Source of the DNA: Candidatus Altarchaeum sp.
Lineage (GTDB): Archaea; Altiarchaeota; Altiarchaeia; Altiarchaeales; Altiarchaeaceae
Length of the DNA: 12,070 nt
Assembly: GCA_018260755.1 (NCBI GenBank)
Contig: JAGTWP010000042.1
Coordinates: 1 to 12,070 of the forward strand
Reading direction: 5' to 3'
The notes below the pieces were generated by a model. It had not been told where the DNA came from. It was given only the letters and a program-made list of their open reading frames with translations, and made no database searches. Position 1 is the first letter of the stretch. The number at the start of each line of letters is the position of its first letter. Both the position numbers and the translations under genes were made by a program. This document shows positions 278-10,287 of this stretch, in pieces.

Positions 278-1100
278 TTATGATTTCGGAATATTAAAAT
301 TTTTACAAATCCTGGGCGGACTTTTGTTATTTTCCACATAATTAAATAAAGTCATTTCCTGTTCTTGCTGTCTGCTATCCATGACTTTGCGGTTATTTGT
401 TTGCGGTCTGTATCTTCCTGTAAATTTACCTTCTTCTTTTCGCTCTTTAAATGTCTTTAATACAACATGTTTTGCAGTTTCTTCCTTGACGGATTTTATT
501 TCTTTTTCATAATTTTTTAATCTTTCCTGTGCATGTTTGACATATTCGTCTGAAATTTCAATACCTATAAAATCATGCTCCAATATTTTTGCCGCAACCA
601 ATGTTGTTCCGCTTCCGCAGTATGGATCAATCACAACGCCCTTCTTTTTGTCCATTATTGAATAAATTACTCTCACAGGTAATTCAACAGGAAAAGGAGC
701 AGGATGTGAATTTTCTCTTTCCGGTGAAAATCTCCATATTGATGTTAATAATGCATGCATTGACTTTAATTCTTCACCAATTAAATCGTTTCCTTTTGGT
801 TTGTAAAGCCAGTATATTCTTTCATCAATCTGCCAGAATCTCCATCCCCTAATATTTGCTGCAATCATTCTGTCCCATGTTATTTCCTGTCTGATTAACC
901 ATTTTGTTTTTCTCAGCCAATCCATAGGATGGAAGATTATCCCTTTTTCCCATCTTATTTTGTGGTTATAAAAGAATACCCTCTGTCTTAGTAGTTCTAA
1001 AAATCTCATTCAAAACATCTATCTGATTTTTTTGGTATTATTCTTCGGGTAATTTATCGGTAACCCCAAAATATTTTACATTTTTGATCAGCCATCCTTT
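278..1100 (-). pseudogene. Decayed beta-class DNA methyltransferase (N4/N6 amino-methyltransferase)
   Basis: The longest open part (1009-278) keeps the C-terminal half of a type II DNA methyltransferase: FFYNHK and a target-recognition stretch, HPAPFP (residues 102-107), the SAM-binding motif I DPYCGSGTT (128-136) and GIEIS (149-153). Homology continues upstream in another frame: KNVKYFGVTDKLPEE, a TAA at 1040-1038 where E is expected, then YQKNQIDVLNEIFR. The frame must then shift by one base near 977 to reach FFYNHK. I find no catalytic DPPY/SPPY motif in any upstream frame before the neighbouring gene at 1129. So the gene has a lost N-terminus, one nonsense codon and one frameshift, and should be inactive. 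It is the last gene of a minus-strand operon with two nuclease-like genes, which suggests a former restriction-modification system. Confidence 0.8.
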
Positions 1101-7844: not shown

Positions 7845-7910
7845 AATGCTTTCAGTGGTTGTTCATCTCATCATAATGATCAGACCGCCCGTTACTCATC
7901 ATAAAGCATT
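7845..7910 (-). ncRNA. C/D-box sRNA guiding 2'-O-methylation, predicted targets 16S C1402 and 23S U2552
   Basis: All elements of an archaeal C/D sRNA are present in order on the minus strand: a 7-bp terminal stem (AATGCTT 7910-7904 with AAGCATT 7851-7845), box C ATGATGA (7902-7896), a 12-nt guide GTAACGGGCGGT, box D' CTGA (7883-7880), box C' ATGATGA (7874-7868), a 12-nt guide GATGAACAACCA, and box D CTGA (7855-7852). Every box is consensus and both guides have the usual 12-nt length. By the fifth-nucleotide rule, the D' guide pairs with ACCGCCCGU of 16S rRNA and selects C1402. The D guide pairs with the 23S A-loop around UGUUC and selects U2552 (E. coli numbering). The gene lies 13 nt downstream of tRNA-Trp on the same strand, so co-transcription is likely. 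It would work with L7Ae, Nop5 and fibrillarin. The targets are inferred. Confidence 0.92.
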
Positions 7911-7958
7911 AAATAAGTTCAGATGGGACCGGAGGGATTTGAACCCTCATCTCCGGGT

Positions 7959-8080
7959 ATCTCCAATGCATGGTTGATATTTGTATTATACAAATTTTTT
8001 CGTCATAGCCAAAAATCACCTCACTTTCGTTTGGAGATTTCAACTTTCGTTGAAATGGCTCAGCGCTCCAGCTAAAATTT
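7959..8080 (-). other. tRNA-Trp intron (122 nt) with BHB splice motif and in-cis C34 methylation guide
   Basis: The junctions form a canonical bulge-helix-bulge: outer stem GGG/CCC, a 3-nt bulge AU^A at the 3' site, a 4-bp central helix CUCC/GGAG, a 3-nt bulge AG^A at the 5' site and an inner AAU/AUU stem, all as required by the archaeal tRNA endonuclease. Within the intron CTGGAGCG precedes a CTGA box; the fifth base upstream of CTGA is a G that pairs with C34 of this same tRNA. This is the box C/D guide arrangement known from haloarchaeal and Pyrococcus tRNA-Trp introns. After CTGA come GCC...GGC and ATGACGA (a near-consensus C'), closing a D'/C' motif. A second guide and D box are not evident. 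A dispersed repeat fills the D'/C' loop. Confidence 0.85.
8011..8056 (+). repeat. Dispersed hairpin repeat, copy 1 (inside tRNA-Trp intron)
   Basis: AAAAATCACCTC, a variable loop, GGAGATTTCAAC, TTTCG and TTGAAAT form two adjacent hairpins: AATCACC with GGAGATT (one mismatch), and ATTTCAAC with GTTGAAAT. The same arrangement occurs at 10018-10068 and, in inverse orientation, at 10288-10333. In the tRNA-Trp intron the copy lies exactly between the GCC and GGC of the D'/C' motif. Confidence 0.7.
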
Positions 8081-8118
8081 CTGGAGCCCATCAGGATGCC
8101 AGGTTACCCCACAGCCCC

Positions 8119-8925: not shown

Positions 8926-9762
8926 ATGGAAAATAAAAAGATAAACATGGGGATAGTAGCAGCAGAGTTTAATTACGATGTGACTTATGCAATGGTCGAA
9001 CTCGCGAAAGAGCATGCAAAATTTTTAAATGCAGAAGTTGTTGAGGTAATGAAAGTACCCGGAACTTATGATATTCCTTTCGGGGTTAAAATTTTGCTGT
9101 CAAAAAAGAACATTGATTGTATCGTAACATTAGGAGCAGTCATTGAAGGGCAGACAGATCATGATGAGATTATTGCACAACAGGCATCAAGAAAGGTTAT
9201 GGATTTATCACTTGAATTTAACAAGCCGGTTGCATTGGGAATATCGGGACCTGGAATGAGTCGTCTCGAAGCCCACGAAAGAGTGGATTATGCAAAAAGA
9301 GCGGTTGAAGCAGCAGTTAAGATGTGCAAAATTAAATTTGCGAATGAGGAAGAAGAAAAAGAGGGTGAGGAAGCGACTAAAGAACAAAAAATTGAAGAAC
9401 CCGAAAAGGAAAGGGGAGAATGGATGAGTGCAGAAGAGTTTATGAATAAAATTACAGAAGGGAAAAGGGAAAAAAAGAAAATAGGAAGGCCAAAAAAGAA
9501 AAAAACATTTGAAGTAATGGCAGAGAAAACAAAGAAAGGTGAAGAAATAAGGGGCCCGGCAAAACTTAAAAAGATCAAGGATGAAGAAAAGAGGAAAATT
9601 ATTGAAGAAATCAAAAAGAAAAGAAATATCACAACAAAAGAGGTAATGAATATGTTTAATGTTAAGAGAATCACAGCATGGAGCGCTATGAAAGAACTTA
9701 TAAAAGAAGGATGGATTAAAACAGAAGGAAGAAGAAACAAAACCCACTACATTCTTGCATAA
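8926..9762 (+). CDS. ribH: Lumazine synthase (RibH) fused to AT-hook-like linker and winged-helix domain
   Basis: Residues 1-135 are a complete archaeal 6,7-dimethyl-8-ribityllumazine synthase, the penultimate riboflavin enzyme, which condenses 3,4-dihydroxy-2-butanone 4-phosphate with the ribityl-pyrimidinedione. FNYDVT (15-20) and GTYDIP (46-51) bind substrate, [13 protein letters not shown] (70-82) contains the catalytic His79, and [16 protein letters not shown] (104-119) lines the phosphate site. Residues 138-165 are an acidic linker. Residues 180-195 are basic with a GRPKKKK AT-hook-like core. Residues about 215-278 form a winged helix: [40 protein letters not shown], then a wing. Usual RibH is 135-160 aa; this is 278. 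The frame is continuous, without base-composition change. An internal ATG (Met167, after GGGGAG) could yield a separate DNA-binding protein. No other rib genes are nearby. Confidence 0.93.
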
Positions 9763-9800: not shown

Positions 9801-10021
9801 ACTGAAAATCCACAAGATTTTCAATCTTTAAAAATGTTTGAAGCATTTTAAAATACTGAAAATCCATACTGAAAATCTACCAGATTTTCAATCTTTAAAA
9901 ATGTTTGAAGCATTTTAAAATACTGAAAATCCATACTGAAAATCTACTGGATTTTCAATCTTTTAAAATGTTTGAAGCATTTTAAAATACTGAAAATCTA
10001 CTGGATTTTCAATCTTTAAAA
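9801..10021 (+). repeat. 67-bp tandem repeat array, about 3.3 units
   Basis: Units begin at 9801, 9868 and 9935, with a shortened unit from 9989. Each contains ACTGAAAATC, a variable 3-6 nt, GATTTTCAATC, TTTAAAAATGTTTGAAGC, ATTTTAAAAT and ACTGAAAATCCAT. Within a unit GAAAATC and GATTTTC form a hairpin with a variable loop (CACAA, TACCA, TACTG), and AAAATG pairs with CATTTT across TTTGAAG. Units are nearly identical apart from the loop. No spacers and no coding potential are present. Confidence 0.9.
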
Positions 10022-10068
10022 ATCACCTCGCTGATGCTCGGAGATTTTCAAAACTCTGCGTTTTGAAA
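10018..10068 (+). repeat. Dispersed hairpin repeat, copy 2
   Basis: AAAAATCACCTCGCTGATGC, then TCGGAGATTTTC, then CAAAACTCTGCGTTTTG form the same two-hairpin layout as the copy in the tRNA-Trp intron. The second hairpin is longer here (CAAAA with TTTTG across CTCTGCG). It overlaps the last tandem unit, so the array runs straight into it. Confidence 0.7.
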
Positions 10069-10287
10069 ATGTTTGGAGCATTTTTAAATAAGATTTTCGC
10101 TCTTATGTTGATTTTTACTGATAGAGATAAACACATTGTTGAATTTTTGCAAATTTTAAAATTCAAGCACAAGTTCAAATATCAATCCAAGTTCAAATAC
10201 ACTATAAAATGCAAAACACAAAAGTTCAATGATAATAGGTATATGAGCGAAGATTTTTAATCTTATTTAAAAATTTCATAAATTTTT
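10069..10287. other. Non-coding repeat-rich spacer
   Basis: Begins with a variant of the array's second hairpin (AAAATGTTTGGAGCATTTTT). It then becomes AT-rich with several similar TTCAAATAT/GTTCAAATAC/AGTTCAA stretches (10165-10230), suggesting decayed short repeats. Open frames here have no family signal. No gene or RNA could be supported. Confidence 0.5.

Follow-up and report, generated by a model that had tools for sequence, protein, structure and literature searches.

C1402 of 16S rRNA and U2552 of 23S rRNA (E. coli numbering, which for C1402 is assigned from universal sequence) are among the few rRNA positions reported to be 2'-O-methylated in both bacteria and eukaryotes, by enzymes or by snoRNAs. 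Eukaryotic C/D snoRNAs for 18S C1639/C1703/C1645 (e.g. AtU43) target the equivalent of C1402 (PMC11542601); the literature searched offered no archaeal counterpart. Guides to U2552, by contrast, have a precedent in archaea: Dennis et al. 2015 (PMC4644070) predicted them in five of seven species. Most of the rRNA double guides on record target sites within 100 nt (PMC4644070, PMC7994747). Archaeal box C/D sRNAs with tRNA neighbours and in circular form have been described (PMC7994747), and a circular rearrangement of guide order was suggested for Methanopyrus sR88 versus sR39/119 (Dennis et al. 2015, PMC4644070). The literature searched held no case of orthologous C/D sRNAs permuted at a syntenic locus.

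We analysed a window of 12,070 nt (the whole stretch of DNA) from the 1.3 Mb, 85% complete genome of an uncultivated Ca. Altiarchaeum-type archaeon (G000). Its gene neighbourhood is archaeal (FttA, L15e, lumazine synthase, flippase). On the minus strand, it carries an sRNA built like the archaeal box C/D double guides, with the same C-D'-C'-D order, perfect boxes, 12-nt guides, a k-turn stem and agreement with the five-nucleotide rule. The features are as follows:

7924..8118 (-): tRNA-Trp(CCA) gene with a 122-nt intron at 7959-8080 (ARAGORN, introns allowed)
7845..7910 (-): box C/D sRNA, 66 nt including the terminal stem (anatomy, conservation, Rfam sR3)
7904..7910 (-): terminal stem, 5' strand AATGCTT (pairs with 7845-7851; covariation)
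7896..7902 (-): box C, ATGATGA (sequence pattern, conservation)
7884..7895 (-): D' guide GTAACGGGCGGT, 12 nt, predicted target 16S C1402 (nine contiguous Watson-Crick pairs with own 16S)
7880..7883 (-): box D', CTGA (sequence pattern)
7875..7879 (-): k-loop linker TCATT, 5 nt (sequence pattern)
7868..7874 (-): box C', ATGATGA (sequence pattern)
7856..7867 (-): D guide GATGAACAACCA, 12 nt, predicted target 23S U2552 in the A-loop (11/12 Watson-Crick pairs with own 23S)
7852..7855 (-): box D, CTGA (sequence pattern)
7845..7851 (-): terminal stem, 3' strand AAGCATT (pairing, covariation)

Counted 5' to 3' on the minus strand, sRNA position p is window position 7911-p, and the layout is stem 1-7, T8, box C 9-15, guide 16-27, box D' 28-31, linker 32-36, box C' 37-43, guide 44-55, box D 56-59 and stem 60-66. 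All elements named in the initial annotation (a 7-bp stem, two perfect ATGATGA and two perfect CTGA boxes, two 12-nt minus-strand guides) can be read directly. A strict search for the four boxes in C-D'-C'-D order gives a single match in the 12-kb window. The sRNA folds with z = -2.2, and its terminal stem covaries in both of the guide orders described below (alignment A1: four pairs changed on both sides; score 0.671 versus a shuffled mean of 0.276). Box C is invariant from its second base onward in 9/9 sequences of the window's order. The gene, its boxes and both guides are kept in four genomes of the window's genus, and the same order is found in five further members of the class. The idea of a fortuitous set of boxes, or of a gene in decay, is thus exceedingly improbable: the strict pattern is absent from 20 Mb of simulated first-order Markov sequence of the same composition, and the conservation, the stem covariation and the co-variation of guide with target all speak against it. 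No point in its favour was found, and it is refuted as far as sequence allows. The covariance-model search proposed at the outset gave a divided answer. Rfam sR3 (RF01133) is the best match and aligns over the whole model (7850-7906, E 0.00014), but its 30.5 bits lie below the gathering threshold of 41. Membership in sR3 was rejected on this score; the guides differ as well. The element is an archaeal C/D sRNA on all features checked, namely boxes, stem, guides and their register, and the fibrillarin and Nop5 of its host. It has C/C' boxes of the form RUGAUGA and D/D' boxes CUGA in C-D'-C'-D order, a k-turn stem, and guides of about 10-12 nt against rRNA with the target at the fifth base from D or D' (16S C1402, 23S U2552).

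Both 16S and 23S rRNA were located in the organism's own genome. The D' guide GTAACGGGCGGT forms nine contiguous base pairs with 16S ACCGCCCGT and places its fifth base on C1402; positions 2-12 of the D guide GATGAACAACCA pair with 23S GGGTTGTTCATC, with the fifth base on U2552. Complementarity of both guides to the host's rRNA, on which the initial annotation had staked its reading, is present in both molecules and in the right register. Runs of this kind are matched by 15 of 500 shuffled D' guides (3%) and by 1 of 500 shuffled D guides (0.2%). Hence, the D match is strong, whereas the D' match is modest alone and needs comparative support. A narrow definition of double guides places both sites within 100 nt of one rRNA; the best sites here lie in 16S and 23S. 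The two-target reading is supported as a prediction for this organism, with a D' guide that seems to have become specific for C1402 recently.

The assignment of the D guide to the A-loop and to U2552 gains from comparison as well as from its 11/12 paired positions, since guide and target change together between genera. An A-loop of TTCATCC goes with a GATGAAC guide in the window's genus; other class members with an available 23S have TTCGCC, and most of their guides read GCGAAC (in three, the far end holds a G-U pair or is mismatched). Guide and target have thus changed together at two positions. The usual U2552 enzyme is RlmE, which belongs to the FtsJ family. No recognisable RlmE was found in the class, where a search with the FtsJ family gave weak matches. 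The strongest of those examined were ubiE-like or RsmB/F-type enzymes, and the single FtsJ-like match of the host genome is an RsmB/F (NSUN) m5C enzyme. As this genome is 85% complete, the absence of RlmE is judged from the whole class. In a class without recognisable RlmE, the U2552 guide plausibly stands in for the enzyme.

The D' guide has a more complex history. We searched 394 archaeal genomes for the module TGATGA-n-GGGCGnn-CTGA, a pattern that leaves guide positions 2, 8, 9 and 10 free, and found it in 126 of them (68 genera); the backwards control pattern occurred in only a few. The 74 tabulated matches outside the window's genus (31 family labels) all have A9 and G10; 66 of them have U8 and 8 have C8, and at position 2 the split is 64 A to 10 G. 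Both sites could be compared in 11 class genomes from outside the window's genus. The guide fits the genome's own 23S A-loop strand TTCGCCCATTAA (fifth base on C2558) better than 16S ACCGCCCGTCAA in 10 of these, the two fits being equal in the remaining one. Both guides of these relatives can reach the A-loop (U2552, C2558). U8 pairs with A in 23S and with G in 16S, and G10 with U in 23S and with C in 16S. No letters other than U8 and G10 can pair with both sites, which is what a two-target guide should show; a pure 23S guide would favour A10, and a pure 16S guide C8 and G2.

The window's genus has lost the 23S site (C2558 is U), and its guide has U1, G2 and C8 and matches 16S perfectly over nine bases. 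Positions 1, 2 and 8 have changed toward 16S in this one genus, and a G to A change at position 10 loses a 16S pair. We infer from this pattern that the guide was released from a double constraint once its 23S site was lost. The claim that the D' guide selects C1402 stands for the host, with its 9 bp in 16S, but is genus-specific, as relatives fit 23S C2558 better. One could also suppose that the RNA is effectively a single guide, in which D directs U2552 while D' has lost its 23S target C2558 and pairs with 16S by descent and chance, to no function. The best site of the relatives is indeed 23S TTCGCCCATTAA (C2558), mutated in the window's genus, a 9-bp run is reached by 3% of shuffled guides, and roughly one archaeal C/D sRNA in three lacks a guide with a good fit to rRNA (PMC4644070). 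However, four genomes of the genus preserve guide positions 1-10, and positions 1, 2 and 8 all became 16S-complementary, so that the guide now forms a perfect, correctly placed duplex of 9 bp. We consider a functionless D' guide quite unlikely.

If the guide is truly bispecific, C8 guides should occur with G at the 23S site UUCGCCCGUUAA and U8 guides with A. One T8-type genome outside the class (G166) has 23S TTCGCCCATTAA, as predicted; in a C8-type genome (G109), no rRNA was found in the 1.2 Mb read. The archaeal 23S consensus in Rfam has g at the site facing guide position 8, so A at this site is not universal. Some matches to the module were set aside as chance: those in bacteria (L010-L012, L014, L016-L022, L027) and one in Natronomonas (L024) come without a second C'/D module. 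Two Aenigmatarchaeota loci (L009, L023) carry a C1402-type guide with an indistinct second half, and a Micrarchaeota record (L025) is the same stretch as G156. Across archaea, the C1402/C2558-type guide appears as D' or as D with many different partners (L103-L142).

Of 29 class genomes, 22 carry the sRNA, and its guides come in two orders. Nine genomes resemble the window in having the C1402-type guide at D' and the A-loop guide at D, and 13 have the opposite order; none of the 22 has both. Well-supported branches of the 23S tree force at least four switches of order, and the lysK tree at least three. The sRNA gene usually adjoins lysK (divergent, upstream) and often precedes an AIR-synthase-like gene, and both orders occupy this slot on the same strand. 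By the lysK genes on the same contigs, G013 (window's order) groups with G019 (swapped order) with support 100/99, and G007 (window's order) with G010 (swapped order) with support 95/92. Mis-binning does not explain the pattern, because these lysK genes pair opposite orders. Pieces of the sRNA flank the gene on both sides in G021, and also in G006, G008, G010, G012 and G018, above shuffled controls.

The simplest account of these data is recurrent circular permutation in place, via tandem duplication and loss. Re-insertion of a circular sRNA is an alternative route, since circular C/D sRNAs are known (PMC7994747). The two orders might instead be ancient paralogues that were present in an ancestor and differentially lost. 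Such paralogues could account for the four changes on the 23S tree without permutation, and further sRNAs with an A-loop guide do exist in G019 and G004. Nevertheless, paralogy sits poorly with the absence of any genome holding both orders among the 22, with the shared slot and strand between lysK and the AIR-synthase-like gene, with adjacent lysK genes that unite G013 with G019 and G007 with G010 under strong support, and with the partial duplicate halves at several loci. We regard differential loss as unlikely and favour repeated permutation. The C1402-type guide is also joined to a partner ACCCTATGAGC in other archaea, again in both orders, and the phenomenon may therefore be general in archaea. 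Taking guide and gene together, an archaea-wide guide could be bispecific by design and freed in Altiarchaeum to become a perfect C1402 guide, while the sRNA gene was repeatedly permuted in place, by half-unit duplication and loss or by circular-RNA re-insertion, with both guides kept. For this combined scenario, our confidence falls a little short of even.

Among the other sRNA-like loci with an A-loop guide (L147, L146; G019:C3, G004:C40), two continue with guides ACTTATGAGTC or ACCTTATGAGCA, which resemble guides to the tRNA-Met CAU anticodon loop; guide modules seem to have been re-paired between sRNAs. G008 and G018 share a similar short insert (CAAACTGTTACACAGTTTGGATCATGTGGTG and variants) in the upstream flank of the sRNA, with a weaker version in G009 (flanks of L082, L090 and L039); in G008 and G018 it adjoins truncated sRNA copies. 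It is perhaps a small mobile element that uses the sRNA gene as a landing site.

In the window, the tRNA-Trp gene lies directly upstream of the sRNA, which starts 13 nt past the tRNA 3' end. Default ARAGORN reported no tRNA in the window, and tRNA-Trp appeared once introns were allowed. The same neighbour is present in the sRNA flanks of the genus's three relatives (G001, G002, G003). L7Ae is a ribosomal protein present throughout archaea, and fibrillarin and Nop5 are encoded in the genome. tRNA-sRNA dicistrons, in which tRNA 3' processing makes the sRNA 5' end, are known (PMC7994747), and the sRNA likely shares the tRNA-Trp transcript. We suggest that the sRNA is co-transcribed with tRNA-Trp or made just downstream of it, and is then loaded with L7Ae, Nop5 and fibrillarin; its sequence and stem covariation show a k-turn at C/D and a k-loop at C'/D'. 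By pairing and the five-nucleotide rule, the D guide is predicted to engage the 23S A-loop for 2'-O-methylation of U2552 by fibrillarin, and the D' guide to engage 16S helix 44 for methylation of C1402. The U2552 guide would thereby replace an RlmE/FtsJ enzyme that is apparently absent from the class. Comparison among archaea suggests that the D' guide descends from an archaea-wide ancestor able to pair with both 23S C2558 and 16S C1402, and that it turned fully 16S-complementary after the A-loop of the window's genus lost the 23S site. Overall, we consider it likely that the locus encodes such a tRNA-linked double guide for U2552 and C1402 that replaces RlmE, with a D' guide of dual C2558/C1402 ancestry.

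The surroundings hold other features. The tRNA-Trp intron (7959-8080, minus strand) contains AGCTGGAGCG-CTGA, which can pair with the anticodon loop and then places its fifth base on C34. It also has a GCC/GGC stem leading to a C' box of degenerate sequence, whereas a clear box D was not seen for position 39 (C here). The arrangement resembles the Cm34 guide, a C/D RNA known to be encoded in this intron. A second C/D sRNA of the same genome (L054 1501-1564; G000:C40:28533-28596), about 5 kb from the Nop5 gene, has guides that fit 23S GGGCACGAAGACCC and AGTTTGGCGGTA. At 8926-9762 (+), the window encodes a fusion protein in which a lysine-rich linker joins lumazine synthase (RibH) to a winged-helix domain (HTH_24) at the C terminus; the latter may give this enzyme of riboflavin synthesis a regulatory part. 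AT-rich nested inverted repeats at 9850-10100 (arms up to 64 nt, 83% complementarity, sub-repeats TGAAAATCTACTGGATTTTCA) may be a MITE-like or hairpin element. A short protein with an N6_N4 DNA methylase domain is encoded at 278-1009 (-).

What is new is the combination of these two targets in one RNA, together with the recurrent permutation and a possibly bispecific origin of one guide. A predicted guide to both C1402 and U2552 in a class without recognisable RlmE would be a clear case of an RNA guide replacing a protein enzyme. The swapped orthologues offer a testable system for the rearrangement of C/D RNA genes and for the role of circular RNAs, and the U8/G10 pattern a simple test of guides that evolve for two targets at once. 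Two-target guides, if true, would alter the prediction of archaeal methylation sites.

Compared with described double guides, the sRNA of the window is distinct in having its predicted targets in two different rRNAs. Compared with known archaeal C/D sRNAs, its orthologues come in two circularly permuted guide orders. Methanopyrus sR88 is a diverged paralogue within one genome, whereas here syntenic orthologues with both guides intact are found in both orders. Unlike the eukaryotic snoRNAs for the C1402-equivalent site, the archaeal guide apparently acts, or once acted, on 23S C2558 too. With the other archaeal U2552 guides (Dennis et al. 2015) and yeast snR52, the sRNA shares predicted RNA-guided 2'-O-methylation of A-loop U2552; it differs from them in that this guide is joined to a C1402/C2558 guide, in a class without recognisable RlmE.
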